A DNA stretch of 64,000 nt from Vibrio sp. JC009. GTDB taxonomy: Bacteria; Pseudomonadota; Gammaproteobacteria; Enterobacterales; Vibrionaceae. Of the stretch, positions 19,313 through 42,494 are shown piece by piece (position 1 is the first letter of the stretch; each line of letters begins with the position of its first letter). The position numbers and the translations under genes are program-made. The DNA is taken from contig NZ_CP092106.1 of the NCBI RefSeq assembly GCF_029016485.1, forward strand, positions 2,232,001 through 2,296,000, given 5' to 3'. The notes below the pieces were generated by a model. It saw only the letters and a program-made list of their open reading frames with translations, had not been told where the DNA came from and searched no databases.

Positions 19313-19422
19313 AGCAGGTTCAAGGCACTTGATTCCACAAAACGCTCAAGCCATCCCTGGGCGCTCAAACTTGCCCTTCCCTGGGCAAGTATGTTTGTTC
19401 CATCAAGTACCTTAAACCTGCT
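19313..19422 (-). repeat. Structured intergenic element, copy A
   Basis: On the minus strand a 21-bp closing stem (5' arm from AGCAGGTTTAAGG, 3' arm to CCTTGAACCTGCT) has two mismatches, both U-G. Inside is a 7-bp hairpin (CTTGCCC with GGGCAAG), then a related CCCAGGGATGG lobe. The inner 80 or so bases match copy B exactly in opposite orientation. It lies upstream of pdxB and past fabB. Confidence 0.8.
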
Positions 19423-19437
19423 ATTAAACTCCCCAGT

Positions 19438-19470
19438 ATAAAAAACGCCCGGCTCTTAGGCCGGGCGTTC
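19438..19470 (-). terminator. Terminator of fabB
   Basis: CGCCCGGC and GCCGGGCG form an 8-bp GC stem with a 6-nt loop; on the minus strand it is followed by TTTTTTATAC. It lies 20-50 bp past the fabB stop. Confidence 0.9.
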
Positions 19471-19490
19471 CATAATCAAAGAAGTAAAAA

Positions 19491-20702
19491 TTAACCTTCG
19501 TACTTCTTAATAACCAGCGTAGCGTTAGTACCGCCGAAGCCGAAGCTGTTAGACATAACTGTCTTCAGTTCCTGATCGCGCTTCTCAGTAACAATGTCCA
19601 GACCCTGAGCTGCTTCATCAAGCGTTTCGATATTGATGCTTGGTGCAATAAAGCTGTTTTCCAGCATCAGTGCAGAGTAAATCGCTTCCTGAACACCAGC
19701 CGCGCCCAGTGAGTGACCTGTCATTGCTTTCGTTGCAGAGATAGCCGGGCTGTTGCCGCCAAAGACTTCCTGAATCGCTTCAAGCTCTTTACCGTCACCA
19801 ACTGGTGTCGATGTACCGTGCGTGTTTACATAGTCAACACCGTCCACATCCTGCATCGCCATCTTCATACAGCGAACCGCACCTTCACCGGAAGGAACCG
19901 TCATATCGTAGCCATCAGAAGTTGCACCGTAACCTACAATCTCACCGTAGATTTTTGCACCACGTGCAAGAGCGTGCTCAAGCTCTTCAACAACAACCAT
20001 ACCGCCGCCGCCAGCGATAACAAAACCGTCACGGGTTGCATCGTAAGTACGAGAAGCTGTTTCAGGCGTATCGTTGTACTTAGTTGAAAGTGCACCCATG
20101 GCATCGAACATCATAGTCTGAGTCCAGTCCAGCTCTTCACCGCCACCCGCGAATACGACATCCTGCTTACCAAGCTGGATCAGTTCAAGCGCGTGACCAA
20201 TACAGTGCGCAGAAGTTGCACATGCAGAGCTCATTGAGTAGTTCACACCGCGAATTTTAAATGGTGTAGCAAGACATGCAGAAACCGTAGAAGACATTGT
20301 ACGAGGTACCATGTAAGGACCAACGCGACGAACGCCTTTCTCACGCATAATATCTACAGCCGCAGACTGGTTAAGTGCAGAAGCACCGCCTGAGCCCGCT
20401 ACGATACCGGTACGCTCGTTTGAAACCTGATCTTCAGACAGACCAGCATCTTCAATTGCCTGCTCCATTGAAAGGTATGCATACGCAGCTGCATCACCCA
20501 TGAAACGCATCTTCTTACGATCAATGTGCTCTGCCGGGTTGATTGTCGGCTGGCCCCATACCTGAGAGCGCAGTCCCATTTCTTTAAACTGCTCAGAGCC
20601 CGTAATGCCTGACTTACCCGCTTTTAGTGACTCCAGAACTTCTTCTACATTATTACCGATACTGGAAACAATACCCATTCCAGTGATGACAGCGCGTTTC
20701 AT
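19491..20702 (-). CDS. fabB: Beta-ketoacyl-ACP synthase I
   Basis: FabB elongates acyl-ACP and is needed for unsaturated fatty acids. The 403-residue protein has the catalytic cysteine in [18 protein letters not shown] near residue 163, and the two catalytic histidines in [12 protein letters not shown] and [13 protein letters not shown]. Length and sequence fit FabB better than FabF. It is transcribed away from mnmC across a 148-bp region that carries both promoters; I could not identify a FabR or FadR site with confidence. Confidence 0.95.
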
Positions 20703-20850
20703 TTCACAATCCTATTAATATTAAAACCGTTAAATAATAACTAACTTAGCAGACAAAAGTGGTCAGCTTTCCTGTAAAACCGTACAATTCTGCACTATTA
20801 GTTACTTTTTCCCTGAAATTATTGACTCACATTCAATAAATGCGACATTT

Positions 20851-22857
20851 ATGACCACTATTACCAATGCAGATCTGGACTGGAATGAATCCGGCACTCC
20901 AGTTTCAGAACACTTTGACGATGTTTACTTCTCCAACGTTAATGGCCTGGAAGAAACCCGGTACGTATTTCTTAAGCAAAATCATCTGCCAGAAAGATGG
21001 CAAACATTTGATCAGCGACGCTTTGTCGTAGCCGAAACAGGCTTTGGTACCGGATTAAACTTCCTGGCAGTATGGCAGTACTTCGAGAAATTTCGAGAAG
21101 AATTTCCTGAATCAGCCTTAAAAGAGCTGCATTTCGTCAGTTTTGAGAAATTCCCGCTGACAAAACAGGATCTTGAAAAGGCACATCAGTCCTGGCCTGA
21201 GCTTGCAAAATACGCAGAGCAACTGCAACAACACTACCCGATAGCGGTTCCGGAATGTCACCGAATCGTACTGGCTGACGGCGCTGTTACTCTTGATCTC
21301 TGGTTTGGTGATATCAAAGACTGTATGCCACAGGTTCCGACCAACCCTCAGGGAATAGTTGATGCCTGGTTCTTAGACGGCTTTGCCCCAAGTAAGAATC
21401 CTGAAATGTGGAATCAGGAGCTGTTTAATAATATGGCGAAGCTGGCGAAACAAGAATGCACTTGTGCCACCTTTACCGCTGCAGGTTTTGTCAGACGCGG
21501 GCTGATTGAAGCCGGCTTTGATATGAAAAAGGTCAAAGGCTTTGGTACCAAAAGAGATATGATCGCCGGACACCTTCCGCAGAAAGCGCCTTTTACTAAC
21601 CTCAAGCCCTGGTATGCCCGTACTACTAACGAGCAAATTACCGATGTCGCTATTATCGGCGGCGGAATTGCTAGTGCTACGCTTGCCCGGACTTTAAGCC
21701 TGCGTGGCGTTAAAGTGTCTCTTTACTGCGCCGATGCCGAGCCCGCAGCCAATGCCTCCGGCAACCGTCAGGGCGCGGTTTATCCTCTGCTAAACGGTAA
21801 CCATAGCGACTTATCCAGAGTTTTCGCTCCTGCGTTTCTGTTTGCACGCCAGTTTGTTGAGCAAACGGCAAAAAAGGTTGCCTTTGATCATGACTGGTGT
21901 GGTGTTACTCAGCTTGCCTATAACGACAAAGCGGCAGAAAAACTGAACAAAATTCTGCAAGGTAATTTCCCGGAAGAGTTAATTAAAAAGCTGTCGGTTG
22001 AAGAAACCGAGCAAACTATCGGCTTACCTACAGGAACAGAAGCAGTCAGCTATCCGCTTGGTGGCTGGTTATCTCCTAAAGAGTTGACTCAGGGGCTGAT
22101 CAGTAAACTGGAGCAGGAGAAGCTGCTGACTACGCATTTCAACACCCGTATTGATAGCATTGAGCAAGCAGAAGAAAATCAGTGGGTACTGCACTCTGGT
22201 GAGAACTCATTTACTCATCAGGCAGTGGTTATCGCCAACGGCCATCTGTTTAATCAGTTCCAGCAAGCGAGCAAAATTGCCACTTCCAGTGTAAAAGGTC
22301 AGGTTAGCCATATTCCGACCACACCGTCACTAAGCAAACTTAAAACCGTGCTCTGCTTTAACGGCTATATGACACCGCAAAACCCGAATAACGGCCACCA
22401 CTGTACCGGGGCCAGCCATGATCGTCAGAATATCGATCAGCTGTTCGACCCTCAGGCACAGATAGATAACGGGCAAAAGCTTGCTAACTGCCTGCCGGAG
22501 ATAGAGTGGGTAAAAGACGTGGATACCAGCGGAAACCTTTCCCGTCAGGGCATTCGCTGCGCGACGCGGGATCACCTGCCCTATATCGGCAATATCTGTG
22601 ATTATGAGCAGGTACTGGAGCAGTATGCCACTTTGCAGAACAACCAGAAAGAGGCTGAGGATATTCCGGTTCATGCAAATCTGTTTGGATTAATCGGGCT
22701 TGGCGGGCGTGGTGTCTGCTCTGCGCCATTTATGGCTGAGCTGCTGACATCGCAAATCTGTAACGATCCGCTGCCGCTACCTGCTGATGTTCTGGAGTTA
22801 TTGCATCCGGGGAGAATGTGGGTGCGTAAGTTATTGAAAGGAAAAGCGGTTGATTAA
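20851..22857 (+). CDS. mnmC: Bifunctional tRNA mnm5s2U34 methyltransferase / FAD-dependent oxidoreductase
   Basis: MnmC completes the 5-methylaminomethyl group on wobble uridines. The 668-residue protein is a fusion. The N-terminal methyltransferase (to about 245) has the SAM motif [16 protein letters not shown] and [13 protein letters not shown]. The C-terminal oxidase begins with the FAD motif [19 protein letters not shown] near 268. Both catalytic halves appear complete. It is divergent from fabB and convergent with yfcL, with structured element B just past its stop. Confidence 0.96.
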
Positions 22858-22863
22858 TCCAAA

Positions 22864-22975
22864 GTGTTGGCTGAATGTACTTGATGGAACAAACATACTT
22901 GCCCAGGGAAGGGCAAGTTTGAGCGCCCAGGGATGGCTTGAGCGTTTTGTGGAATCAAGTACATTTAGCCGACAC
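22864..22975 (+). repeat. Structured intergenic element, copy B
   Basis: A 22-bp closing stem has a 5' arm starting GTGTTGGCTGAATG and a 3' arm ending CATTTAGCCGACAC. Its only two irregular pairs are U-G and G-U. The interior holds hairpin CTTGCCC/GGGCAAG and a second CCCAGGGATGG lobe. It fills the gap between the convergent genes mnmC and yfcL and could end transcription, but there is no U-run. Confidence 0.8.
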
Positions 22976-22986
22976 AGCCACCGATA

Positions 22987-23250
22987 TTAAAGCTGCCCCA
23001 CCAGTTGCTGCCACATATCGTTCACTACCACCCGATCTGCCGGCGACAACTCTGACTTAGCTTCTTCAATACTGGCTTCAATTCTCGCCTTAAAAGTCTC
23101 CAGGTCATCAATGCCTTCCGACTCGCATGCGGCGGCAGAAAGCGAGATATGTCCTCTCAAATAACCACCGGCAAACAGCTCATCCTCTGATGCGCTTTCA
23201 ACAGAAGAGTCGATCAATTCGAGGAGTTTTTCTTCAAAATCTAAAATCAT
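22987..23250 (-). CDS. yfcL: YfcL family protein
   Basis: This small acidic protein of 87 residues is similar to E. coli YfcL along its length (EDELFAGGYLRGHISLSAA and the C-terminal NDMWQQL). The function is unknown. The ATG at 23250 (MILDFEEKLLELIDSS) is chosen; an in-frame TTG lies four codons upstream. It keeps its E. coli position next to mnmC, but the yfcM, yfcA and mepA genes that follow it there are not between it and aroC here. Confidence 0.85.
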   Translation of the reverse strand: MILDFEEKLLELIDSSVESASEDELFAGGYLRGHISLSAAACESEGIDDLETFKARIEASIEEAKSELSPADRVVVNDMWQQLVGQL

Positions 23251-23280
23251 TGTTGTTCTCAACTGACGAAATGTATCCGT

Positions 23281-23399
23281 GTCATCCCGGAAACAGCGAA
23301 GCCATTATCCGGGACCTAATTTATGCGCATTGTGGAGCTACAGAAAATCTTTAGCCTTACAACAAGCGTCAATCAGATTCCTGCCTTCGCAGGAATGAC
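23281..23399. repeat. Paired-hairpin repeat, copy 2 (diverged)
   Basis: The left hairpin is GTCATCCCGGA ... ATCCGGGA and the right one is AGATTCCTGCC-TTCG-CAGGAATGAC. The spacer keeps GCGCATTGT and TTACAACAAGCGT, related to the copies at 12.1 and 31.5 kb. It lies between yfcL and aroC. Confidence 0.65.
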
Positions 23400-23422
23400 A
23401 ATGAGTTGGCTGTTGTAACCTT

Positions 23423-24508
23423 CTAAATCTTCGGAGTTTCAGTGCTCACACCCTGATTCTGCCCGCGATGGCGCAGCAGGTGATCCATCAGCACAATCGC
23501 CAGCATAGCTTCCGCAATCGGCACTGCACGAATGCCCACACAAGGATCGTGACGGCCTTTGGTAATTAGCTGAGTTGGCTCACCGGTTTTAGTGATGGTG
23601 TCACCCGGAACCGTAATACTTGAAGTCGGCTTAAGAGCGATATTTGCAACAATATCCTGACCGCTTGAAATACCGCCAAGGATGCCGCCTGCATGGTTAC
23701 TTGTAAAACCTTCCGGAGTCAGTGGATCTCTGTGCTCACTGCCACGCTGGTTGACCACATCAAAACCATCACCAATCTCAACACCTTTAACCGCGTTGAT
23801 ACCCATCAACGCATGCGCAATATCGGCATCAAGACGGTCAAACACAGGCTCACCAAGGCCAACCGGAACATTGGTTGCGACCACCTGAAGCTTAGCGCCG
23901 ATGGAGTCACCCTCTTTCTTAAGATCACGGATTAACTGGTCAAATGCTTCAACTTTGTCGGCATCAGGACAGAAAAAGGCGTTATTTTCAATTTCATCCC
24001 AGTCGACCTTATCGATGGAAACATCACCCATCTGAGAAAGATAAGCGCGAACTTCAACGCCAAACTCCTGCTTAAGGTACTTTTTCGCAATCGCACCAGC
24101 TGCAACACGCATTGCTGTTTCACGGGCAGATGAACGGCCGCCACCGCGATAATCACGGATGCCGTATTTCTGGTGATAAGTGTAGTCAGCATGACCCGGA
24201 CGGAATTTATCTTTGATTTCCGAGTAGTCTTTTGAGCGCTGGTCGGTATTTTCAATCAGCAGACCGATTGAAGTACCCGTTGTTTTTCCTTCAAACACAC
24301 CAGAAAGGAATTTCACTGCATCGGGTTCCTGACGTGCTGTTGTATAGCGGGACGTTCCCGGACGGCGGCGATCCAGATCTTTTTGCAGATCGGCTTCGTT
24401 AATTTCCAGTCCCGGAGGGCAGCCATCCACGATACAACCAAGCGCTACACCGTGACTTTCGCCAAATGTTGTTACTCTGAAAAGTTGTCCAATACTATTT
24501 CCCGCCAT
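23423..24508 (-). CDS. aroC: Chorismate synthase
   Basis: AroC removes phosphate from EPSP to give chorismate, using reduced FMN. The 361-residue protein has the family signatures [20 protein letters not shown] at the N-terminus, [14 protein letters not shown], and [20 protein letters not shown]. Its length is typical. It lies 267 bp downstream of prmB; a terminator and heptamer repeats fill the gap, so aroC probably has its own promoter. Confidence 0.97.
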
Positions 24509-24608
24509 TACATCCTCATTGTAGATCCTGATTTCATTTTCAGGTTATCTTGTATCTGTTTTTCGTGCCTTCATAGTCGCTTTATCGGGGGGGGATGTAA
24601 ACCTCTTT

Positions 24609-24640
24609 TTAGCTTTCAGCTTTCAGCTGTCAGCTATCAG
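24609..24640. repeat. Heptamer repeats, left arm
   Basis: About four units related to TTTCAGC/TGTCAGC/TATCAG run in tandem. They are the inverted counterpart of the GCTGATA units at 24743-24776, with the prmB terminator between the two arms. Confidence 0.55.
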
Positions 24641-24710
24641 TTTGGAGAAAGCCTAGCTTGCAAATGAAATATCAGCTTAATATCAATGTATTGAGCAAAA
24701 TTCAGGTAAC

Positions 24711-24736
24711 AAAAAAGGTGGTCAACATGACCACCT
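24711..24736 (-). terminator. Terminator of prmB
   Basis: On the minus strand AGGTGGTCA and TGACCACCT form a 9-bp stem with a 3-nt loop, followed by TTTTTTG. It lies about 40 bp past the prmB stop. Confidence 0.88.
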
Positions 24737-24742
24737 CTGAAA

Positions 24743-24776
24743 ACTGACGGCTGATAGCTGATAGCTAATAGCTAAT
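24743..24776. repeat. Heptamer repeats, right arm
   Basis: Units CTGACGG, CTGATAG, CTGATAG, CTAATAG, CTAAT follow one another with a 7-bp period and touch the prmB stop codon. Similar words recur at 27923-27942. Confidence 0.55.
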
Positions 24777-25723
24777 CAATCTTTATAAAGACTAAACTCA
24801 TCCGCACATTCAACAAGCTGCTCACGGGTCAGCATAAATACGCCGTGGCCGCCATTTTCAAACTCGATCCAGGTGAACGGGATCTGCGGGTACTGATCCA
24901 TCATATGAACCATTGAATTGCCCACTTCACAGATTAAGATGCCGCCTTCGTTCAGATAATCTGGTGCATTCGCCATAATACGGCGTACCAGTTTCAGGCC
25001 GTCAGTACCCGCAGCCAGACCAAGCTCAGGCTCATGGGTGAACTCTTCAGGAAGACTGTTCATATCCTCTTCATCAACGTATGGAGGATTAGTAACTATC
25101 AAATCGTATTTATCTGCATTTGGTAGATCTCTGAACAGGTCTGAACGAATCGGGAACACCTGCTGCTCCATACCGTGGTCCTGAACATTCTGCTCAGCCA
25201 CTTCCAGTGCACCTGCAGAGATATCAATGGCATCAACCTCTGCATCAGGGAACGCATGCGCACAAGCGATAGCAATACAACCGCTGCCGGTACACAGATC
25301 CATAATTCTCATAGGCTCATGAGTCAGCCATGGCTGGAACTGAGCTTCAATCAGCTCACCAATTGGCGAACGTGGCACAAGAACCCGCTCATCAACAAAG
25401 AACTCCAAGCCGCAGAACCAGGCCTTGTTTGTCAGGTAAGCCGTTGGTGTACGATCATTAATGCGTTTTACTACACGGTTTACAATGCGCTGACGTTCAG
25501 ACGTTGTCAGACGAGAGTTAAGCACATGCGGAGGCACATCGATAGGAAGATACAGTGTCGGAAGTATCAGCTGAACAGCTTCATCCCACGCATTGTCGGT
25601 CCCGTGTCCGTAAAAAAGACCAGCAGCGTTAAAACGGCTCACAGTCCAGCGAATCAAATCCTGAAGGGTATAAAGCTCCGATACCACTTCTTCCACAAAA
25701 ATCTTATCCAAATTTGCCTCCAA
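24776..25723 (-). CDS. prmB: 50S ribosomal protein L3 N5-glutamine methyltransferase
   Basis: PrmB methylates a glutamine of ribosomal protein L3 during 50S assembly. The 315-residue protein has the SAM motif [20 protein letters not shown] and the catalytic [10 protein letters not shown] typical of glutamine N5-methyltransferases. Its N-terminal helical domain fits PrmB rather than PrmC. It is divergent from smrB with only 48 bp between start codons, so the two promoters overlap or face each other. Confidence 0.94.
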
Positions 25724-25771
25724 AAAGCGCTACAATACTGCGATTAGATGTAATTAACGATTTTCAGCCAT

Positions 25772-26302
25772 ATGAGTAACAAAGACGAAAGCTTTGAAGA
25801 TGACTTTTCCCTGTTCAAAGACGCAGTAAAGGGCGTAAAAAAGTTGCGACAGGATACCATAATCCAAAAGCCAACAAGAAATACAAAACAAAAAGAAGTG
25901 CAACGAACCTTCAGAGAATCAAAAGATAACGAGTTTTTCTTCTCCGATGAGTTTATTCCACACCTAGATGAAGATGGCCCGACCCGCTACGCCAGAGATG
26001 ATGTTTCTAAGTTTGAAGTAAAAAGGCTGAGAAGAGGTGTTTATGTTCCGGATGTTTATCTGGACATGCACGGAATGACGCAACAGGAAGCAAAGGCGGA
26101 ACTCGCCGCCATGATCGCGTACTGCATCAAAGAAAACGTGCACTGTGCCTGTGTGATGCACGGCATCGGCAAGCACATCCTAAAACAGAAAGTGCCGGTC
26201 TGGCTGGCGCAGCACCCGGATGTAATGGCCTACCACCAGGCTCCGCTTGAATTTGGCGGGGATGGAGCATTGTTGGTGCTGCTTTCTGTTCCTGAGAAGT
26301 AG
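25772..26302 (+). CDS. smrB: Smr-domain endonuclease SmrB (ribosome rescue factor)
   Basis: SmrB cleaves mRNA at collided ribosomes in E. coli. This 176-residue protein has a charged N-terminal extension that in the family contacts the ribosome, and a C-terminal Smr domain with YLDMHGMTQQEAKAEL (the DxH catalytic motif) and a glycine-rich VMHGIGKHILKQKVP. Length and position next to prmB match SmrB. A REP-like unit and the IS element follow. Confidence 0.93.
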   Translation: MSNKDESFEDDFSLFKDAVKGVKKLRQDTIIQKPTRNTKQKEVQRTFRESKDNEFFFSDEFIPHLDEDGPTRYARDDVSKFEVKRLRRGVYVPDVYLDMHGMTQQEAKAELAAMIAYCIKENVHCACVMHGIGKHILKQKVPVWLAQHPDVMAYHQAPLEFGGDGALLVLLSVPEK

Positions 26303-26329
26303 TCCTCTTTCTTTAAAGCTAGTGCCTAG

Positions 26330-26360
26330 CCTCTCGTTCCCACGCTCCTGCGTGGGAACG
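26330..26360. repeat. REP-like palindrome, interrupted by the IS
   Basis: CCTCTCGTTCCCACGCT, CCT, GCGTGGGAACG reads up to the left IS end. The tail GCATACC that follows GGGAAT in the intact unit at 19.13 kb is found on the other side of the IS at 27720-27726. This indicates that the IS entered this repeat. Confidence 0.7.
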
Positions 26361-26384
26361 TATATGGACTCCCCCTGTAACACA

Positions 26385-26621
26385 AGTGGTTTAAGATAAT
26401 AAGAGTTTATGCAAGTGCACGTATATTCGGTTTCATCATGGGGCGCTACCCCGAACCTTTATGGCTAAATCCACTAACAAGGCTTCTAATCGCAGTCCAG
26501 GCATTTATTGCCTCATTCCCACACAGAGTTTGCCTTGTGTGCTGTGCTAACACTTTATCTTAATTACTTGCTATTACGCTGGTTTGTCGTTTGCTCCAAA
26601 TTCAGCTTTACCTTATTTCAG
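26385..26621 (-). ncRNA. Candidate IS1111-type guide RNA (seekRNA/bridge RNA) region
   Basis: IS110/IS1111 elements encode a noncoding RNA that pairs with target and donor DNA; in the IS1111 group it lies 3' of the transposase. This 237-nt segment is noncoding in all frames. It contains a GGTT-GGGG / CCCC-AACC nested hairpin (26427-26456) and an AGGC/GCCT hairpin (about 26499-26513). Just 5' of the latter, in the RNA sense, is GTGGGAATG (26522-26514), which equals the REP target. TGGACT (26499-26494) matches the IS end. Boundaries are not determined. Confidence 0.6.
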
Positions 26622-27644
26622 TTAAGCTAACTTAAGCTGGTAAGGCTGTTTTGATTTCAATATGGCACACGCCATCCTGACTATCTTATTCGCTAGAGCA
26701 ATAACGACTTTATTCACATGGTTTCTCTCTAACAGAGAGCGTATCCACTGACTAAGTGGATCAGTTTTATCTTTGACATGACTAACTACAGCTCGGGCAC
26801 CATGAACGACAAGAGCTCTGAGATAACGATCTCCTCGCTTAGTAATGCCAAGGTTGATATTTCTACCTCCACTTCCTGTATGAGCAGGCACTAATCCAAT
26901 GCTTGCGCTTGCATCCCTACCACACTTATAAGCCGATGCATTTCCTAACCTGGCATACAAAGCACTGCCTGAAATCCATGAAATACCCGGTAACGAGGCT
27001 AAAAGCTTACAATCTTCATTTTGTTTTGCCTGATTGGTAAGAGCTTGAGTGGCATCATCAATTTGGGTATCAAGCGCGAGCAACTGTTCTTTAAGATTAT
27101 TTAGAATAAACCGAGCAGCATGGGTTAATTCATTTTCAGCATTTTCCAACTCAAACGGTAGCTGTTTTCTGAGCGAATTGATTCCTATGGGAAATTTGAT
27201 GCCATATTCCATCGCAAGCCCCCGGATACGGTTAGCAAGCTGTGTTCGTTGCTTAATATAACCTTCCCGCAGTCTTAGTAAGCAGGCAAGATCTTGCTGT
27301 TCAACAGTTTTAACCGGAACGAAATGAATATCTGTCCGCTGACTGGCTTCATAAATAGCCAAAGCATCATTGGGATCATTTTTATTTCCCGAGCGATACT
27401 TAGCGGCGATCTGAGCAGGCACGAGTAAGACTTGATGTCCTGCCTGCTGGAACTTTCGACCCCAATAATGAGCCGTTGCACAAGCTTCCATACAAATAAC
27501 AGCTTTGGGGTGCTTAGCCACCATTGAAATTAACTTTGATTGAGATACTTTTTGATTAGATGAAAGCTTTCCGTGCTTATTAATTATCGCAACTTGAATA
27601 ACAGTCTTAGCAAGGTCGATAGAAATAGTGATATTCTTGTTCAT
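26622..27644 (-). CDS. IS110-family transposase
   Basis: The 340-residue protein has a RuvC-like DEDD N-terminal domain with D10, E53, D90 and D93 (ISIDLAK, CMEA, NKNDPNDA). The C-terminal Transposase_20 domain contains LLASLPGISWISGSALYAR and a candidate nucleophile S258 in HTGSGGRNINLG. An SD (AAGGAG) lies 8 bases before the ATG. No frameshift or truncation is seen, so the element may still be active. Confidence 0.95.
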   Translation of the reverse strand: MNKNITISIDLAKTVIQVAIINKHGKLSSNQKVSQSKLISMVAKHPKAVICMEACATAHYWGRKFQQAGHQVLLVPAQIAAKYRSGNKNDPNDALAIYEASQRTDIHFVPVKTVEQQDLACLLRLREGYIKQRTQLANRIRGLAMEYGIKFPIGINSLRKQLPFELENAENELTHAARFILNNLKEQLLALDTQIDDATQALTNQAKQNEDCKLLASLPGISWISGSALYARLGNASAYKCGRDASASIGLVPAHTGSGGRNINLGITKRGDRYLRALVVHGARAVVSHVKDKTDPLSQWIRSLLERNHVNKVVIALANKIVRMACAILKSKQPYQLKLA

Positions 27645-27778
27645 GGCATGGGCTCCTTTTTAGTTGACACTCTTACCTTAGCCGATATTTTCGACGAAGG
27701 TGAGGGAGTCCATGCCATTGCATACCATGGCCTAAGGTGCAATCCATAACACCCATCATTTCCTCTCCAGAAAAAAGC

Positions 27779-27880: not shown

Positions 27881-27886
27881 CTCCGA

Positions 27887-33392: not shown

Positions 33393-34196
33393 ATGAGACT
33401 TATCCCACTAAATACAGCACAAGATGTCGGCCTGTGGTCAGCACGACACATTGTTAATAAAATCAATAAATTCAAACCAACAGAAGATCGTCCTTTTGTA
33501 TTGGGCTTACCTACCGGTGGCACACCTTTAAGCACATACAAAAGACTGATTGAGCTTTATAATCAGGGTGAAGTAAGCTTTAAACATGTTGTGACCTTTA
33601 ACATGGACGAATACGTGGGCATTCCTGCGGACCACCCGGAATCTTACCGTTCATTTATGTATGAAAATTTCTTTAATCATGTTGATATTCAAGAAAAAAA
33701 CATTAACCTTCTGAATGGCAATACGTCAGATCACGAAGAAGAGTGCCGACGTTACGAAGAAAAAATTAAGTCTTACGGCAAAATTGACCTGTTTATGGGC
33801 GGTGTAGGCAACGACGGCCATATCGCATTTAACGAACCGGCTTCTTCTCTCTCTTCGCGTACCCGTATTAAAACGCTGACGGAAGATACCCGTATCGCCA
33901 ACTCACGATTCTTTGACAATGACATCAATCAGGTGCCGAAATACGCTCTGACTATCGGTGTCGGCACACTGCTGGATGCAAAAGAAGTGATGATCCTGAT
34001 TACCGGTCATAACAAGGCGCTGGCTTTAGAGGCCGCCGTTGAAGGCTCGGTAAACCACCTATGGACAGTAACGGCACTTCAGTTACATGCAAAATCTGTC
34101 ATAGTATGTGATGAATCTTCTACTCAGGAACTTAAAGTGAAAACCGTAAAATACTTTAAGGAACTGGAGGCGGAAAGCATCAAGGACTTGAAATAA
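33393..34196 (+). CDS. nagB: Glucosamine-6-phosphate deaminase
   Basis: NagB turns GlcN-6-P into fructose-6-P and ammonia. The 267-residue protein has the family signatures [26 protein letters not shown] (catalytic aspartate) and [25 protein letters not shown] lies before the ATG. It begins the nagB-nagA-nagC operon (15 bp to nagA). Confidence 0.97.
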
Positions 34197-34211
34197 TAGA
34201 GGACAAATAAA

Positions 34212-35348
34212 GTGTATGCGCTAACCAATTGCAAAATATATACAGGTAGCGATGTGCTGTTTAACCATTCCGTCGTCATCGGCGGAATGGATATCGTTTC
34301 AGTATGTCCTGACTCAGAACTTCCAGCAGATATCGAAGTAAAAGATCTGAACGGCGCAAATCTGTGCCCGGGATTTATCGACCTGCAGTTAAATGGCTGT
34401 GGCGGCGTCATGTTTAACGATGAGGTTTCCGCAGAAACGCTTCAGACAATGCATCTTGCCAACCTGAAATCCGGCTGCACCAGTTTTCTGCCTACTCTGA
34501 TAACCTCATCTGATAAAGATATGCGTCAGGCAGTGGCTGCCGAAAAAGAGTACCAGAGCCAGTACCCCAACCAGTCTCTGGGACTTCATATTGAAGGTCC
34601 TTATCTGAATGTGCTGAAAAAAGGCATCCATAACCCAGATTTTATCCGTCGATCCGACGACGACATGATCGGCTTTCTGTGTGAAAACAGCCAGTATGTC
34701 ACTAAGGTGACTCTTGCACCTGAGCAAAACGACCCTGAGCATATCAAACGTCTGAAAGATGCAGGCATCGTTGTGTCCATTGGTCACACCAACGCCACTT
34801 ACGCTGAAGCCAGAAAAGGATTTGAAGCGGGTATCACATTTGCAACTCACCTGTTTAATGCCATGACGCCTATGGCCGGGCGCGAGCCGGGAGTAGTCGG
34901 AGCCATTTACGATACACCGGAAGTTTATGCCGGCATTATCGCTGACGGCTATCATGTTGATTATGCTAACATTAGAATCGCTCACAAAATAAAAGGCGAG
35001 AAGCTGGTATTAGTGACTGACGCCACAGCACCTGCCGGCGCCAGTATGGAATACTTTATTTTTGTTGGGAAGAAAGTATATTACCGTGATGGGATGTGCA
35101 TTGATGAAAACGGCACACTCGGTGGTTCAGCACTGACGATGATCGAAGCCGTTCAGAACTGTGTTGAACACGTCGGTATTGCATTGGACGAAGCACTGCG
35201 AATGGCCACTCTCTACCCTGCGCAAGCAATTGGAGTAGAGAACAAGCTTGGCCGTATCAAACAAGGAATGGTTGCCAACCTGACCGTGTTTGATCGTGAC
35301 TTCAATGTCCTTGCGACAATGGTTAACGGACAATACGAGCAAACATAA
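34212..35348 (+). CDS. nagA: N-acetylglucosamine-6-phosphate deacetylase
   Basis: NagA deacetylates GlcNAc-6-P before NagB. The 378-residue protein starts at a GTG (34212) with GAGG upstream. It has the metal and active-site segments [45 protein letters not shown] and the catalytic aspartate in [10 protein letters not shown]. It is 2 bp from the next gene, nagC. Confidence 0.97.
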
Positions 35349-35350
35349 AT

Positions 35351-36565
35351 ATGACAAGCGGTCAGATAGGAAATGTAGATTTAGTTAAACAACTTAACTG
35401 TGCGGCGGTATACCGCTTAATCGATCAGGAAGGTCCTATCTCCCGCATTCAGGTTGCTGACGTTAGCCAGCTGGCACCTGCAAGTGTCACCAAAATCACC
35501 CGTCAGCTGCTTGCTCAGGGATTAATTAAAGAAGTCGCTCAACAGGCCTCCACCGGAGGACGAAGGGCGATTTCTCTTACTACAGAAGTGGAGCCCTTTC
35601 ACTCTGTCGCCATCCGGGTTGGCCGCGACTATTTCCGGCTCAGCCTTATCGACCTTGGTGGCACTGTCCTTGCCAGCGATGCCGTTGAATTCCGTTACGC
35701 CAATCAGAACGAGCTATTAAAAGGCTTGATCAGGCACATACGACGCTTCCTTAACCAGAACCAGCAGATTATCAAAACCCTGATCGCAGTCGGGATTGCC
35801 CTGCCGGGGCTGGTCAACCCGGAAACAGGCGTGGTTGAGTACATGCCGAACACCAACATTGATAATCTGGAGCTTGCAGACGAAATCAAAGCCCAGTTTA
35901 AAGTCGAGTGTTTCGTCGGCAACGATATCCGGGGTAAAGCGCTGGCCGAGCACTACTTTGGTGCCAGCCGCGACTGTCAGGACTCCATTCTGGTCAGCGT
36001 TCACCGTGGTACCGGTGCCGGTATCATTGTCAATGGTCAGGTATTTTTAGGTCATAACCGCAACGTGGGTGAAATCGGCCATATTCAGATAGACCCACTA
36101 GGGGAACAGTGCCAGTGCGGTAACTTTGGCTGCCTGGAAACCGTTGCCGCTAACCCGGCCATTATCGACAGAATAAAAAAACTCATCAGCCGTGGGTACA
36201 ACTCTTCACTGGCTGAGCTCGACAACATCACCATGAAGGACGTTTGTGAGCACGCCTTAAACGGCGATGAACTGGCAAAAGAGAGCCTGATCCGTGTCGG
36301 CAATATGCTGGGTAAGGCCATCGCCATTACCGTCAACTTATTTAACCCGCAAAAAATTGTTATTGCCGGTGATATCACTCAGGCGCAGGATATTGTTTTC
36401 CCTGCCATTCGTAAGAATGTTGAAACCCAGTCTCTGACAAGGTTCCACAAAGATCTGCCCATCGTCGCCTCCGAGCTGGAAAGCCAGCCAACCATGGGCG
36501 CTTTCGCTATGGTCAAACGGGCCATGCTAAACGGCGTGCTGCTGCAGAAAATTCTTGGCGAATAA
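35351..36565 (+). CDS. nagC: NagC-type ROK-family transcriptional regulator
   Basis: The 404-residue protein has an N-terminal helix-turn-helix (about 30-70; IQVADVSQLAPASVTKITRQ). The ROK sugar-binding domain (about 85-400) contains the zinc motif CQCGNFGCLE. In E. coli NagC represses nag genes until GlcNAc-6-P binds. Its place as third gene of the nag operon makes the same role likely, with control at the divergent region. Confidence 0.93.
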   Translation: MTSGQIGNVDLVKQLNCAAVYRLIDQEGPISRIQVADVSQLAPASVTKITRQLLAQGLIKEVAQQASTGGRRAISLTTEVEPFHSVAIRVGRDYFRLSLIDLGGTVLASDAVEFRYANQNELLKGLIRHIRRFLNQNQQIIKTLIAVGIALPGLVNPETGVVEYMPNTNIDNLELADEIKAQFKVECFVGNDIRGKALAEHYFGASRDCQDSILVSVHRGTGAGIIVNGQVFLGHNRNVGEIGHIQIDPLGEQCQCGNFGCLETVAANPAIIDRIKKLISRGYNSSLAELDNITMKDVCEHALNGDELAKESLIRVGNMLGKAIAITVNLFNPQKIVIAGDITQAQDIVFPAIRKNVETQSLTRFHKDLPIVASELESQPTMGAFAMVKRAMLNGVLLQKILGE

Positions 36566-36583
36566 CCGGTAAGAGACAAGAAC

Positions 36584-38182
36584 GTGCCTGTTGAAATTAC
36601 ACTCATCTCTGCCGCCTTCGTTTCAGGTTTTCTGGCATTAAGAGTCAACCTTCCGCCGCTTGTGGGCTTCCTTCTGGCGGGTTTTACCCTAAACCTGCTG
36701 GGTTATGAGACCAATCAGAGCATAGAGTTACTTGCCGACCTCGGTGTTACCCTGCTGCTGTTTACCATCGGTCTGAAGCTGGATATCAAAACCCTGCTTT
36801 CAAAAGAGATCTGGGCCGGTGCCACGCTGCATAACCTGTTATCCACCGCAGTTTTTACCAGCGCGTTTATGCTGCTAAAAACTCTGGGCGTAACGACCCT
36901 TGCCGGTTTAGCCTTTGAGCAGTTACTGCTGCTCAGTTTTGCTCTTTCCTTCTCCAGTACCGTATTTGCGGTAAAAACCCTGCAGGAAAAGGGCGAGATG
37001 AACTCCATCTACGGCAATATCGCCATCGGTATTCTGGTAATGCAGGATATCTTTGCGGTGCTGTTTCTCACCATCTCCACCGGCAAGTTGCCGGAGTGGT
37101 ATGCCATTGCTCTGTTTGGCCTGCCGCTGATTCGTCCGGCTTTATATAAGTTACTTGACCGTGCCGGGCACGGAGAAATGCTGGTTCTGCTTGGTATCTT
37201 TTCCGCTCTGGTGCTTGGTGCAGGTCTGTTTGAGTTTGTGGGAATGAAGCCGGATCTTGGCGCGCTGATACTTGGTATGCTACTGGCAGGACATAAAAAA
37301 TCATCCGAGCTTTCCAAATCCCTGTTTAATCTGAAAGAGCTGTTTCTGGTCTGCTTCTTCCTTAATATCGGCCTGGCTGAGCAACCGACGGTTTCCGGAT
37401 TCCTGATGGCATTGCTGTTTATGCTTCTGCTGCCGATAAAAGGGGCACTTTATTTTGCCGTCATCAACGGTTTTAAGTTCCGCGTCCGGACCTCTCTGCT
37501 TGCGTCTCTGTCGCTGTTTAACTTCAGTGAATTTGGCCTGATTGTCGGTGGCCTGGCTTATAAGCAAGGGTGGCTTGACGGAAATATTCTGGTTTCAGTC
37601 GCTATCGCCGTTTCCCTCTCCTTTATTATTGCTGCGCCGCTCAACCGCTTTGGTCACAGGATCTACCAGCGCTCTTCCAGCTGGCTGAAAGAGCATTCCG
37701 CTGAATCTCTTAATCACAGAGATCAACTGATCAATCCGGGTGACGCTCAGGTGTTGATCCTGGGTATGGGCCGGATTGGCAGCGGCGCCTATGACGAAAT
37801 CAGAGAAAGATATGGCGATATCTGCCTGGGTGTGGAAGTGCACAAAGAAGGAGCTCGTCAACACAGTGAAGAAGGCAGGAATGTACTTTGCGAAGACGCC
37901 ACCGACCCTGACTTTTGGGAACGCATTCTGGATACAGGCAGAGTAAAACTGGTTCTGCTGGCAATGCCCCACCACCAGGGAAACCAGCTAGCCCTGAATA
38001 TGCTGACCAACAAAGGCTTTAAAGGGCAGATTGCGGCAATTGCCGAGTATCCGGATCAGATTGATGCTTTGTATGAGCAGGGGATTGATGCGGCATTCAA
38101 TATCTATCGTGAGGCTGGTAGTGGTTTTGCCAGGCATGTTTTTGAGCAGTTGGATACCGATCTAACAGCAAGAAATCACTAA
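36584..38182 (+). CDS. CPA2-family cation:proton antiporter with TrkA-N domain
   Basis: The 532-residue protein has about 12 membrane segments (CPA2 fold, residues about 1-375) and a cytosolic RCK/TrkA-N domain (about 385-510) with LILGMGRIGSGAYDEI. It is related to KefB/KefC and YbaL. KefC-type glutathione control cannot be inferred. The GTG start at 36584 is 18 bp after nagC, so it may be transcribed with the nag operon; a link to GlcNAc use is not obvious. Confidence 0.85.
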   Translation: MPVEITLISAAFVSGFLALRVNLPPLVGFLLAGFTLNLLGYETNQSIELLADLGVTLLLFTIGLKLDIKTLLSKEIWAGATLHNLLSTAVFTSAFMLLKTLGVTTLAGLAFEQLLLLSFALSFSSTVFAVKTLQEKGEMNSIYGNIAIGILVMQDIFAVLFLTISTGKLPEWYAIALFGLPLIRPALYKLLDRAGHGEMLVLLGIFSALVLGAGLFEFVGMKPDLGALILGMLLAGHKKSSELSKSLFNLKELFLVCFFLNIGLAEQPTVSGFLMALLFMLLLPIKGALYFAVINGFKFRVRTSLLASLSLFNFSEFGLIVGGLAYKQGWLDGNILVSVAIAVSLSFIIAAPLNRFGHRIYQRSSSWLKEHSAESLNHRDQLINPGDAQVLILGMGRIGSGAYDEIRERYGDICLGVEVHKEGARQHSEEGRNVLCEDATDPDFWERILDTGRVKLVLLAMPHHQGNQLALNMLTNKGFKGQIAAIAEYPDQIDALYEQGIDAAFNIYREAGSGFARHVFEQLDTDLTARNH

Positions 38183-38672
38183 GCTCTATTATTTGCTCCT
38201 CATTTAGCAGCGAGTAACGAACAGTTCTCCCCCTTGAGTGAAAAAGCCTAACTAGTTGATAAAGCTAACAGAAGGGGGAGTTAGAGGGGGTTGGTTATGC
38301 CACACATGGCTAAATCACAATGGTTTAAGTTCATGAGAAGCAACCCCTCCCAACCTCCCCTTCGATGGGGCTTCTTCGATAATCCAACCTTCTGAGATTA
38401 AGGGGAGGGGCCGACCTTTGCCCTAATCAGGCTTTCCGTCGTATAGAGAGCTTATCAACTCCATAGACCCACTAAAGCTACAATCAGTAAAAATCAGGCA
38501 CAAAAAACCAACAGACTTTAAATCCCATTTAATAAATTCGCATTTAATTAAATAATTTCTAATTCCAACGCTATTTATTCAACTTTTTTATCGCTAACGG
38601 TTGCTTTTTTTATTCAGGATGGCAAATTGAACGCCTATAACAAAACAGAATTTAATATGGGAATCGTATTGT
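38183..38672. other. 490-bp gap between the antiporter gene and asnB
   Basis: The left half is a C/G-rich hairpin repeat (38224-38420). The right half (38421-38672) is very AT-rich with several T- and A-runs, and is the asnB leader and promoter. Only a weak GGGAA precedes the asnB ATG. No ORF or tRNA is seen. Confidence 0.6.
38224..38420 (+). repeat. C/G-rich hairpin repeat, copy 1
   Basis: Begins GTTCTCCCCCTTGAGTGAAA and has GAAGGGGGAGTTAGAGGGGG about 45 bases on, so CTCCCCCTT pairs with AAGGGGGAG. The second half has CAACCCCTCCCAACCTCCCC and later TTAAGGGGAGGGG. A second copy in reverse orientation is at 46975-47164. Confidence 0.75.
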
Positions 38673-40349
38673 ATGTGTTCGATCTTCGGCATCTTAGATA
38701 TTAAAAGCGACGCGGCTGCACTTCGCCCGGTTGCTCTGGAAATGTCAAAAAAACTTCGCCACCGTGGTCCTGACTGGTCAGGTATCTACGCGTCAGACAA
38801 AGCTATCCTTGCTCACGAACGTCTGGCTATCGTTGGCCTGAACAGTGGCGCTCAGCCAATCTACAGCCCGGACAAAAAACTTATCCTGGCAGTAAACGGC
38901 GAAATCTATAACCACAAAGAGATCCGTGCAAGATACGAAGATAAGTACGATTTCCAGACAGACTCTGACTGTGAAGTTATCCTGGCGCTTTACCGTGAGT
39001 ACGGTGCAGACCTTCTGGAAGAGCTGAACGGTATCTTCGCTTTTGTTCTTTACGATGAAGAGAAAGACCAGTACCTGGTTGGTCGTGACCACATCGGTAT
39101 CATCCCTATGTACCAGGGCTATGACGAGAACGGCAACTACTACGTTGCTTCTGAGATGAAAGCTCTGACGCCGGTTTGTAAAACCATCAGTGAATTCCCT
39201 CCAGGTTGCTCTTACGGCAGCGCAGATGCAGAACCTCAGCGCTACTACGTTCGTGACTGGATGGAATACAACGAAGTAAAAGGCAACACAACAAGCAAAG
39301 AAGAGCTGACAAAAGCGCTTGAAGATGCGGTACACCGTCAGCTAATGACAGACGTACCTTACGGCGTACTTCTTTCCGGTGGTCTGGATTCATCTATTAC
39401 ATCTGCTGTTGCTAAGAAATTTGCGGCAATGCGTGTTGAAGATAACGACAAATCAGCAGCATGGTGGCCTCAGCTTCACTCATTTGCTATCGGCCTTGAA
39501 GGTGCACCTGACCTTGCAGCTTCACGTGAAGTAGCAGAAAAACTGGGCACAGTTCACCACGAAATGACTTACACCATTCAGGAAGGCCTGGATGCGATTC
39601 GTGACGTTATCTACCACATCGAAACTTACGATGTAACCACTATCCGTGCTTCAACTCCTATGTTCCTGATGGCGCGTAAGATCAAAGCTATGGGTATCAA
39701 AATGGTACTTTCCGGTGAAGGTGCGGATGAAATCTTCGGTGGTTACCTGTACTTCCACAAGGCACCAAACGATAAAGAGATGCACGAAGAGCTGGTTCGT
39801 AAACTGCTTGCTCTGAACATGTTTGACTGTGCACGTGCGAACAAGTCTCTTGCTGCATGGGGTGTTGAAGGCCGCGTACCATTCCTTGATAAAGAATTTA
39901 TCGATGTTGCAATGCGCGTAAACCCGAAAGACAAGATGTGTGGCACTAACGGTAAGATGGAAAAACACATTCTGCGTGAATGTTTTGAACACTACCTGCC
40001 GGATTCAATCGCATGGCGTCAGAAAGAGCAGTTCTCTGATGGTGTTGGCTACGGCTGGATTGATTCACTGCGTGACACTGCTGAAGCAAAAATCACAGAC
40101 CAGCAGATTGAGACAGCGAGCTACCGCTTCCCGTACAACACGCCTCAGACTAAAGAAGCGTACATGTACCGCGAAATCTTTGAAGAGCTGTTCCCGCTGC
40201 CATCAGCAGCAGAATGTGTACCAGGCGGCCCGTCTATCGCATGTTCTTCAGCGAAAGCTATCGAATGGGATGAAGCATTTAAAGATATGGCTGACCCATC
40301 CGGCCGGGCTGTACAGACAGTACATAACGATTCTTACGAATCGCTATAA
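38673..40349 (+). CDS. asnB: Asparagine synthase (glutamine-hydrolysing)
   Basis: AsnB makes asparagine from aspartate, ATP and glutamine. The 558-residue protein starts MCSIFGILDIK, so the glutaminase cysteine is residue 2. The Ntn domain runs to about 190. The synthetase domain has the PP-loop VLLSGGLDSSITSAVAKK and SGEGADEIFGGYLYFHKA. Length matches E. coli AsnB. A terminator follows, so it is monocistronic. Confidence 0.97.
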   Translation: MCSIFGILDIKSDAAALRPVALEMSKKLRHRGPDWSGIYASDKAILAHERLAIVGLNSGAQPIYSPDKKLILAVNGEIYNHKEIRARYEDKYDFQTDSDCEVILALYREYGADLLEELNGIFAFVLYDEEKDQYLVGRDHIGIIPMYQGYDENGNYYVASEMKALTPVCKTISEFPPGCSYGSADAEPQRYYVRDWMEYNEVKGNTTSKEELTKALEDAVHRQLMTDVPYGVLLSGGLDSSITSAVAKKFAAMRVEDNDKSAAWWPQLHSFAIGLEGAPDLAASREVAEKLGTVHHEMTYTIQEGLDAIRDVIYHIETYDVTTIRASTPMFLMARKIKAMGIKMVLSGEGADEIFGGYLYFHKAPNDKEMHEELVRKLLALNMFDCARANKSLAAWGVEGRVPFLDKEFIDVAMRVNPKDKMCGTNGKMEKHILRECFEHYLPDSIAWRQKEQFSDGVGYGWIDSLRDTAEAKITDQQIETASYRFPYNTPQTKEAYMYREIFEELFPLPSAAECVPGGPSIACSSAKAIEWDEAFKDMADPSGRAVQTVHNDSYESL

Positions 40350-40356
40350 AACAGAA

Positions 40357-40384
40357 AGGCTGCCAATCGGCAGCCTTAATTTTA
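40357..40384 (+). terminator. Terminator of asnB
   Basis: AGGCTGCC, AATC, GGCAGCCT form an 8-bp stem followed by TAATTTTAT. It lies 8 bp past the asnB stop; it may also end the opposing lipoprotein transcript. Confidence 0.85.
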
Positions 40385-40402
40385 TATCAATCCCGCTTTT
40401 AA

Positions 40403-40762
40403 CTAATTTTTAGAGCCCAGCATATCCAAATACCACCGGGACGGAAGCTGATATTTCGCACACTCCTTACAGGAAAGCTCCATCCCCGTATCATCCTGAT
40501 AAAAAGTCAGAAGAATGTCATTCTCCTTGCCCAGCGGATCAGCGTAGTGCAACTTCAGGTGATTGTCTTCAATGGCAAATGGCTTAGTGATACTGCCGCT
40601 TGGCGTCACAATGTCCACCACATCGGTATTAAAGTCCAGAGAGAACTCCAGCCCCTTATCTACAAACTTCTTCTGAAACGGTGGCTGTTCCTCTTCCGTA
40701 CATCCGGCCACCAGAAGTGTAGCGACTACCGCATACACGCACTTTTTTATAACACTTTTCAT
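40403..40762 (-). CDS. Small predicted lipoprotein, function unknown
   Basis: The ATG at 40762 has AGGAA five bases upstream and gives 119 residues. The start MKSVIKKCVYAVVATLLVAGC is a lipoprotein signal with lipobox LVAGC (cysteine 21). Glu at +2/+3 after the lipid cysteine suggests outer-membrane sorting. The mature part is acidic and beta-rich, with a CKEC pair near the C-terminus. An in-frame upstream extension is ignored. It lies 28 bp downstream of rfaH and is probably cotranscribed with it. I do not recognise the family. Confidence 0.8.
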   Translation of the reverse strand: MKSVIKKCVYAVVATLLVAGCTEEEQPPFQKKFVDKGLEFSLDFNTDVVDIVTPSGSITKPFAIEDNHLKLHYADPLGKENDILLTFYQDDTGMELSCKECAKYQLPSRWYLDMLGSKN

Positions 40763-40790
40763 CTCAATTCCTGAATACACCTGAGCGGTT

Positions 40791-41285
40791 TTACAGCTCA
40801 ATATCCTTGTTATCCACGCTAACCTCAACCGTCTGGCTGATCAGTTTAATCAGCAGAATAGAGCGCTTCTCACCATCCGGTTCATGGTAAATCGCATCAA
40901 TACCGGCAAACTGCCCTTCTCTGATACGCACTTCCTGGCCTTTTTCCGGCAGGCTGTCTGTCATAGGTTCCGCCGCCGCACCTTCAAGCTGACGAAGCTC
41001 ATACACAAGACTGCCTGTCACTTCCTGCGGATAACTACCCTGACGAATAAAGTCCACCACGCCCCGCGTGGAGCGAACTGTGGTAAACGAGGGCCCCTCT
41101 TCATAATCAAACCGGATAAAAATATATGAAGGAAACAGTGGCTCTTTAACCACCTGGCGCTTACCACGTACAATTTTTTCCACTTCAACCTGAGGATAGA
41201 AACACTCCACCCCCTGATTCTCCAGATGCATCTGTGCTCTGGCCTGATCGCCCCGCTTACAGTAAAGCAGATACCAACGTTTCAT
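40791..41285 (-). CDS. rfaH: Transcription antiterminator RfaH
   Basis: RfaH is a NusG paralogue recruited at ops sites to help transcribe long surface-polysaccharide and secretion operons and to bind ribosomes. The 164-residue protein has the NGN domain (MKRWYLLYCKRGDQARAQMH, FPSYIFIRFD) and a short C-terminal KOW domain (EKGQEVRIREGQFAGIDAIY). Its length is closer to RfaH than to NusG. I saw no ops element in the window. Confidence 0.92.
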   Translation of the reverse strand: MKRWYLLYCKRGDQARAQMHLENQGVECFYPQVEVEKIVRGKRQVVKEPLFPSYIFIRFDYEEGPSFTTVRSTRGVVDFIRQGSYPQEVTGSLVYELRQLEGAAAEPMTDSLPEKGQEVRIREGQFAGIDAIYHEPDGEKRSILLIKLISQTVEVSVDNKDIEL

Positions 41286-41378
41286 AATTTTATTATTCGA
41301 GTAAAGTCACATAAAGACTGATGCTACCACTAAACCGGGCAGCAAGGCACAAAACTTTCATGTTTCTTTGCCGATAGT

Positions 41379-42338
41379 CTATATATTCAACACCAACTCA
41401 GCCATCATCCGGATATGAGCTTCATCATCATTAAGACATTGAATATAGCGGTAATCCGCACCACCGGCAGACTGATAAATCTCTTTACACTCTTGTGCAA
41501 TTTCTTCCAGTGTTTCTAAACAGTCTACCGAAAAAGCCGGAGTAATAATGTCCAGCGAAGCAAAGCCTTTTTTGCCCAATTGCTGAAGGGTTTCGTCCGT
41601 GTACGGCTTCACCCACTCCTCTTTGCCAAAGCGGGACTGAAAGCTAAAACCGATCTGTTCTTCATTCAGCTCCAGTTCTCTCGCCAATAACTGAGTCGTA
41701 ATTTCACACTCCTGGGGATAGTCATCACCGTTATCAGCATACCGCTGCGGAATGCCGTGATAAGAGCAGAGCAGATAATCCCCTCTTCCATTCTTATCCC
41801 AGTGCGCTTTCACACTTTCCGCCAGTGCACTGATATACAGCGTATGGTCGTGATAACGCTTAATCACACTGCATTCCGGTGCGTTCTGTACCTGCTTCAG
41901 TGCTTTTTCCAGAGCATCTTCCACAGCGCCGGTTGTGGTACCTGAATACTGAGGATACAAAGGCAGAACAACAATCTGCTCCACACCCTTTTGCTGTAGC
42001 TTTTCAATCCCGCTCTGAAGACTTGGGTTACCATAAGTCATACCCGGCTCAACCGGCAAACCGGTCGCTGCCGCCAGCTTTTCCGCCTGCCTTTTGGAAT
42101 AAACCATCAATGGCGAGCCCTCATCCATCCAGATGCTTTTATAAAGCTCAGCAACCCTTGGTGATCTTTTAGGAAGAATAATGCCGTGCAGAACCGGACA
42201 CCAGATCCAGCGAGAAGTATCCACCACCCTCTTATCATGAAGAAACTGGGCAAGAAACCGTTTAACAGCTTGTGGTGTCGGCTCATCGGGTGTACCCAGA
42301 TTGACCAGCAGAATTCCTTTTTTAGCTTGTTGAGACAT
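41379..42338 (-). CDS. hemH: Ferrochelatase
   Basis: HemH inserts Fe2+ into protoporphyrin IX. The ATG at 42338 gives [20 protein letters not shown] and 319 residues, the usual size; an in-frame start 24 codons upstream adds a non-family tail. The catalytic histidine is in [20 protein letters not shown] and the later conserved [15 protein letters not shown] is present. It follows adk with structured element C between them. Confidence 0.95.
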
Positions 42339-42380
42339 GCCTTGTAATTTCCAATTATTTTTCGAACGCAGGAGTTTCAT

Positions 42381-42494
42381 GTGGTGGGTTAAGGGTACCT
42401 GATGGAACAAACATACTTAGCCATGGATGGCTAAGTTTGAGCGCCCATGGACGGCCCGAGCGTTTTGTGCAATCAGGTACCCTTAACCCGCCAC
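42381..42494 (+). repeat. Structured intergenic element, copy C
   Basis: A 23-bp closing stem has a 5' arm GTGGTGGGTTAAGGGTACC... and a 3' arm GGTACCCTTAACCCGCCAC; the single irregular pair is U-G. The inner hairpin is CTTAGCCA/TGGCTAAG, where copies A and B have CTTGCCC/GGGCAAG, so both arms changed together. The second lobe also has CCCATGGACGG instead of CCCAGGGATGG. It lies between adk and hemH. Confidence 0.8.

Follow-up and report, generated by a model that had tools for sequence, protein, structure and literature searches.

The closest described relatives of the element considered here are structured RNAs that carry GGA in their hairpin loops. The nearest named family is TwoAYGGAY (RF01731), which the entry on this family in Weinberg et al. 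2010 rates as probably RNA and probably not cis-regulatory, with occurrences in the human gut, gamma-Proteobacteria and Clostridiales. In their remarks on TwoAYGGAY, Gardner and Eldai 2014 (PMC4333381) predict CsrA binding and note that the family has tandem G-A pairs and that its external stem is poorly conserved. The optimum for RsmE/CsrA is stated as A/U-CANGGANG-U/A in a passage of PMC6849547. A section of PMC4894983 treats CANGGANG apical hexaloops as high-affinity CsrA sites with an optimal intersite distance of 18 nt, and describes a pair of such hexaloops in flaA mRNA, spaced 21 nt apart, which titrates CsrA. Here we describe an element of ~110 nt found three times in a 64,000-nucleotide stretch of Vibrio sp. 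JC009 (contig NZ_CP092106.1, positions 2,232,001 to 2,296,000; the window, in whose numbering coordinates are given). In our reading, which we hold at a probability of roughly 0.6, these copies are members of a dispersed family that forms a Vibrio branch akin to RF01731, is predicted to bind CsrA where transcribed, would titrate it, and has spread as mobile repeats. The element itself is not categorically new; the surprise is the dispersed, mobile character of a CsrA-type module.

The first-pass annotation of the window had described a three-copy element. All three copies are real and lie at 19311-19425 (copy 1, minus strand, which is its sense strand), 22862-22976 (copy 2, plus) and 42380-42494 (copy 3, plus), but three is only the share of the window. 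BLAST with copy 2 against the window's own genome (5.21 Mb, 3 contigs) yields ten close copies, termed type A, on which a covariance model, R1, was built; it gives copies 1, 2 and 3 scores of 123.2, 127.3 and 124.8 bits. Searching the genome with R1 at E ≤ 10, with 150 of 1848 first-look candidates scored, brings the total to at least 43 sense-strand copies at 42-127 bits. A rescan of the fetched regions returns these 43 and, in addition, two weak antisense echoes of members of that set. The remaining 33 copies (type B and others) score 42-68 bits and have a similar plan with differing sequences. Thirty-eight of the 43 lie on the large contig C1 and five on C2, as scattered single sites over both chromosomes, and none overlaps a gene called by a simple open reading frame caller. 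Integron attC sites, for comparison, form a clustered cassette array with conserved core sites.

Read on their sense strands, the window copies have cores that align without gaps and fold into a long closing stem and a three-way junction from which two hairpins branch. Fold-energy z-scores against shuffles are -9.3, -11.3 and -9.6 for copies 1, 2 and 3, and the antisense strand folds more weakly. Closing stems of 21-23 bp had been annotated, and RNA folding gives 21, 22 and 23 bp, with 2, 2 and 1 irregular pairs, every one of which is G-U or U-G in this orientation, as had also been noted. The exchange of CTTGCCC/GGGCAAG for CTTAGCC/GGCTAAG on the two arms of an internal hairpin (P2) is likewise real. 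The outer arms had been said to differ between copies while staying self-complementary, and the ten close paralogs bear this out: both sides have changed in 29 of 41 pairs, 98.3% of cells are paired compared with 73.8% in shuffles, and the covariation score is 0.721 vs 0.201. When 59 distinct rows are taken from across the genus, the paired share is 94.1% vs 57.7% when shuffled, in an alignment that was made to R1, is hence biased towards the model, and contains one antisense echo. All ten type-A copies place G25 and A27 opposite G and A in a 3x3 internal loop, where sheared pairs may form; type B copies differ.

A covariation test, which the first-pass annotation had suggested, was carried out as a home-made, tree-based null test in the spirit of R-scape. 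It used 35 type-A sequences of at least 75 bits in a structure-free MAFFT alignment, with same-locus repeats and one copy with an insertion (L285) excluded. On a FastTree tree, parsimony substitutions were re-dealt over the columns to give 40 null alignments, and column pairs at least 4 apart were scored by a G statistic with average product correction. Thirteen column pairs reach E ≤ 0.05, and each of them corresponds to a base pair in the proposed structure: seven in the outer stem, four in P2, one just inside the GGA internal loop and one beside the closing pair of the hexaloop of the second hairpin (P3). The kinds of pair point the same way. Of 1700 pair cells in the 43 own copies, counted without the two antisense echoes, 1544 are Watson-Crick, 85 G-U, 8 A-C and 63 other (G-U vs A-C, p 2e-17). 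The alignment model is more tolerant of G-U than of A-C; the strand, however, is fixed by the conserved core. A biased C-to-T change on the transcribed strand could also yield the G-U excess, and would itself imply transcription. Covariation, the G-U asymmetry and the conservation of the loops thus lend strong support to selection on a structured RNA, and this part of the earlier suggestion of a transcribed structured RNA stands.

The hairpin loops give the structure its likely partner. In 42 of the 43 own copies there are exactly two CANGGANG words, at the tips of P2 and P3, and both loops have the form C-ANGGAN-G, 22-24 nt apart. Among 92 distinct genus sequences, 81 have both loops at a spacing of 22-24 nt, compared with 2 of 2000 mononucleotide shuffles. 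Loop variants include AUGGAU, AGGGAA, AGGGAU, AAGGAU, AUGGAC and AGGGAC, among others; A-N-GGA-N and the C-G closing pair are kept while the letters of the stems vary freely. Strict AYGGAY loops occur in only part of the own copies, whereas the broader ANGGAN form is found in the same 42 of 43. The genome has one match for a CsrA gene (PF02599, 89.6 bits), and the protein matches solved CsrA and RsmE chains, with one difference from solved CsrA in residues 1-54. We infer that each copy, where transcribed, would bind CsrA, its loop pair serving as a bipartite site for one CsrA dimer. Alternatively, the loops could serve some other partner or form RNA kissing loops, the match to CsrA being coincidental. 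AUGGAU is indeed the commonest loop (42 of 81 P2 loops and 46 of 81 P3 loops) and, where the preceding base is C, gives rise to the self-complementary CCAUGG. However, AGGGAA, AAGGAU and AGGGAC lose this self-complementarity yet keep ANGGAN, in line with the CsrA consensus; we regard this alternative as very unlikely.

The first-pass annotation recognized no named family, and Rfam is indeed silent in the window at gathering thresholds, but RF01731 proves to be a clear sub-threshold relative. At a relaxed threshold its model matches copy 3 with 40.3 bits, the best score in the genome, against a gathering score of 43, and over the whole genome it finds 20 matches at E ≤ 10, 19 of which coincide with R1 copies. 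The poorly conserved external stem of TwoAYGGAY resembles that of the Vibrio element, its tandem G-A pairs may have a counterpart there, and RF01731 is the closest family. While the CsrA idea for RF01731 is already published, the link to a Vibrio repeat and the dispersal are new as far as the literature searched shows; the open-licence papers covered gave us neither a description of RF01731 as dispersed nor a report of repeats with CsrA sites in Vibrio.

RF01731 itself can be surveyed in the same manner. In a sample of 369 Gammaproteobacteria, with at most seven candidates scored per genome, RF01731 matches at E ≤ 0.001 occur in 23 genomes, and in 15 of these they exceed the cut-off; 13 of the 23 have at least two matches and 10 have one. 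Rescanning eight genomes (seven with at least six matches and one with two; three belong to one genus) gave 3, 6, 10, 14, 15, 16, 20 and 30 matches, 114 in total. These include 25 neighboring pairs less than 600 nt apart, of which 24 are divergent, head to head, and resemble REPIN-like doublets. When 23 representatives from other Gammaproteobacteria were folded, most shared the plan. In part of its carriers, RF01731 therefore has the look of a dispersed repeat, and its loops vary more than those of Vibrio. By eye, a CCCCTT-type motif stands directly 5' of several RF01731 copies (L330, L354, L363, L326, L349, L322 and L360; genomes G430, G611, G705 and G501).

The distribution of the Vibrio element is patchy. 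Under stricter filters, R1 finds matches in 27 of 227 genomes of the genus, own genome included, and in 9 of 197 sampled genomes of the family, in 3 of 13 genera. At the MnmC locus the element is absent from all 80 loci inspected in Vibrio, Aliivibrio, Photobacterium and a few unassigned records, a set in which seven loci were shorter than requested and gene order was confirmed only for some; at the adk locus it is absent from all 29 relatives. The nearest relative among the genomes seen, G098, has an empty adk-hemH site and carries copies of its own at other places. Two sites are common to both genomes (L120/L283 and L136/L284), and here the stems have changed, pairing is mostly kept and the loops are still ANGGAN. 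At a further site (L119/L281) the arms are wholly different, and the copies may represent an independent insertion. In one intergenic region (L113 in the own genome, L272 in G098) the copies have opposite orientations and different arms, as if it had been occupied twice independently. G098 aligns at only ~70-90% around the own sites, and the exact insertion boundaries of the own copies are therefore not fixed; a comparison with its empty sites gave, by eye, no convincing match that would trace the arms to the target site.

A second relative, G041, shows what a mobile form of the element can look like. It has at least 40 DNA matches, some of them partial (40 of 157 candidates scored). Its ten distinct type-A copies with both ends found (L286-L291, L227, L306, L312 and L318) form a unit of 148-149 bp with inverted ends TACCAATCT/AGAATGGTA, and nine of the ten are flanked by identical 3-bp sequences, TTA, TGA or TAA; an eleventh copy (L097) lacks intact ends. 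We take this unit to fit a miniature inverted-repeat transposable element (MITE) of the IS5 type. No shared terminal ends were seen at the 43 own copies. In plasmid and phage collections, from which records very near the own genome were perhaps excluded, copy 2 has no match at E ≤ 1e-5. The element is apparently a dispersed, mobile repeat, a character that the first-pass annotation had not proposed. The flank of L287 (bases 177-202 of the query used for the G041 search) also contains a 26-base stretch that recurs many times in G098 and G153, another dispersed repeat of the genus.

Mobility raises the question of whether the element is purely a DNA-level palindromic repeat or MITE, with arms kept complementary by hairpin-templated repair (quasipalindrome correction) and with no selection on RNA. 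Dispersed copies that are absent from the examined loci of relatives would be expected of such a repeat, as would the 149-bp MITE of G041 with its inverted ends and TNA duplications, and G098 adds two head-to-head pairs and one tail-to-tail pair. On the other side stand the 85 G-U vs 8 A-C pairs on a strand defined by the core and the ANGGAN loops that are kept as the P2 stem changes, including at the two sites common to G098; P2 and P3 covary as well as the outer arms. We consider an explanation confined to DNA unlikely, and retain the reading of a mobile repeat that encodes a selected RNA.

The neighbors of the window copies are mutually unrelated housekeeping genes. Copy 1 (P1 arms of the outer stem 19402-19423 and 19312-19333; P2 hexaloop AGGGAA 19377-19382; P3 hexaloop AGGGAU 19353-19358) lies between fabB (beta-ketoacyl-ACP synthase I, 19491-20702, minus) and a pdxB-like gene (17960-19165, minus; below NCBIfam cut-offs). 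Copy 2 begins 5 nt past the stop codon of mnmC. Its P1 arms (22864-22885 and 22954-22975) lead to a symmetric GGA/GGA internal loop (22886-22888 / 22951-22953), a short stem P1b (22889-22893 / 22946-22950), P2 (22894-22921, hexaloop AGGGAA 22905-22910) and P3 (22924-22944, hexaloop AGGGAU 22929-22934). Copy 3 (P1 arms 42382-42403 and 42472-42493; P2 hexaloop AUGGAU 42423-42428; P3 hexaloop AUGGAC 42447-42452) is antisense to both of its flanking genes, hemH and adk, which are on the minus strand. The RNA of copy 2 could arise as the 3' end of the mRNA of mnmC; transcription of copy 3 would need an antisense start. Elsewhere in the window, 53062-61674 on the minus strand is a single open reading frame of 2870 aa.

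Such positions invite a comparison with cis-acting mRNA elements, in which a copy in an untranslated region (UTR) would let CsrA or another factor control the stability or translation of the neighboring gene. A called stop codon lies within 25 nt of 18 of the 43 copies, seven of these 18 being sense-directed (copy 2 after mnmC, for example), and the Rfam type of RF01731 is Cis-reg. However, 19 of the 43 copies have a sense RNA that runs antisense to both neighbors, and only 7 have one that is sense to both, with mixed arrangements in 11 (A,S) and 6 (S,A). The unrelated neighbors, the empty window sites in relatives and the verdict on cis-regulation in the TwoAYGGAY entry of Weinberg et al. 2010 also argue against a cis-acting role, which we regard as quite unlikely. 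Titration is the likeliest role because the copies are many, are alike in site, stand beside unrelated genes and are not oriented as UTR elements.

Two candidate transcription signals were considered and rejected. An orientation bias might have been evidence for an own promoter, since the upstream gene is antisense in 30 of 43 cases in the own genome (p 0.014), but the figure is 6 of 18 in G098. The antisense strand was also considered as a terminator; terminator-like calls fall on the antisense P2 of each window copy, and the tail is, by eye, not T-rich in type B. A GGAG lies at most 25 nt upstream of 12 of the 43 copies, compared with 0-4 of 43 in ten more distant bins.

Several observations weigh against a family of transcribed CsrA-binding RNAs related to RF01731. 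Across the 43 own copies there is no conserved promoter, no U-run past the 3' arm and no recognizable terminator. Upstream of copy 3 there is one correctly oriented sigma-70-like site, but chance expects about as many, and copies 1 and 2 have none. The mixed orientation to genes also means that many copies cannot depend on sense read-through. With regard to the loops, own copy L110 has neither, and 11 of the 92 genus sequences lack one or both (seven have one and four have none). RNAalifold alone picks another P3 apex (pairs 71-78 and 72-77) that partly buries the GGA; here, the covarying pair from the tree-based null test favors the open hexaloop. As for the family link, none of the 20 RF01731 matches in the own genome reaches the gathering score, none is found at E ≤ 0.001 under stricter filters, and one of 14 control genomes (M. 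jannaschii) also matches RF01731 below the cut-off at E ≤ 10. Among the 23 folded RF01731 representatives, two CANGGANG words occur in 8, one in 14 and none in 1, and the second loop is often of CAGGA type, in some cases without GGA.

Taken as proposed, the sense RNA would consist of a long outer stem of nearly free sequence, provided that it pairs, a symmetric GGA/GGA internal loop (in type A), a three-way junction and two hairpins. The two C-ANGGAN-G hexaloops, with GGA motifs 22-24 nt apart, would accommodate one CsrA dimer, and each transcribed copy would most likely bind and titrate CsrA as a minimal CsrB/RsmZ-like sponge. Tens of copies could then make up a distributed pool of CsrA sites, spread as mobile repeats and, in G041, as a MITE. 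The level of transcription, the titration effect and the mechanism of transposition in the own genome are conjectural. More tentatively, the element can be pictured as a mobile element with a predicted CsrA-binding RNA as cargo, which installs tens of CsrA-dimer sites as it copies itself along the chromosome. It would then be a sponge, selfish or domesticated, through which the carbon-storage regulon of some Vibrio lineages is reset, and the whole RF01731 family would be an element of this kind; we think this possible, though doubtful.

Known CsrA sponges are encoded by one or a few dedicated genes. If our reading is true, a dispersed dimer-binding repeat, variable nearly everywhere except in its pairing and loops, would represent a different way of organizing the control of a global regulator, and would reveal how a CsrA dimer-binding module spreads. 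For RF01731, this provides a natural experiment: a genome can hold tens of paralogs, the sites are empty in sister species, and one lineage has the MITE form. The CsrA prediction of 2014 becomes directly testable.

Known systems each share part of this design. The CsrA-sequestering small RNAs (sRNAs) CsrB/CsrC and RsmX/Y/Z are encoded by one to a few genes, each of which combines many sites with a promoter and a terminator of its own. They share the recognition motif with the Vibrio element, and their GGA motifs lie in hairpin loops, usually in pairs. The Vibrio element has only two hexaloops in each of its tens of copies, and no promoter or terminator is recognizable there. The leader of Campylobacter flaA mRNA, as portrayed in the section cited above, also presents two GGA hexaloops (21 nt apart) and titrates CsrA; it is an mRNA leader at one locus, whereas the Vibrio element is dispersed. 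In Alteromonas, the three sRNAs Aln1a-c, encoded in one 404-bp region, have A(N)GGA loops and are proposed to sequester CsrA. These are marine and gammaproteobacterial, and the likeness is by description only. Among repeats, ERIC, which a passage of PMC10969869 mentions in Vibrionaceae, and other bacterial MITEs are also short, palindromic and intergenic, but the Vibrio element is set apart from ERIC, by description, through copy-specific arms that stay paired and a core with CsrA-type loops. TwoAYGGAY comes closest: its outer stem is long and poorly conserved, its internal loop is rich in G and A, its two hairpins end in GGA loops, and part of its carriers have it in multiple copies. Unlike TwoAYGGAY, the Vibrio element scores at most 40.3 bits against the required 43, its loops extend beyond AYGGAY to ANGGAN, and its copies in the own genome are mostly solitary, whereas RF01731 elsewhere often occurs in divergent pairs.

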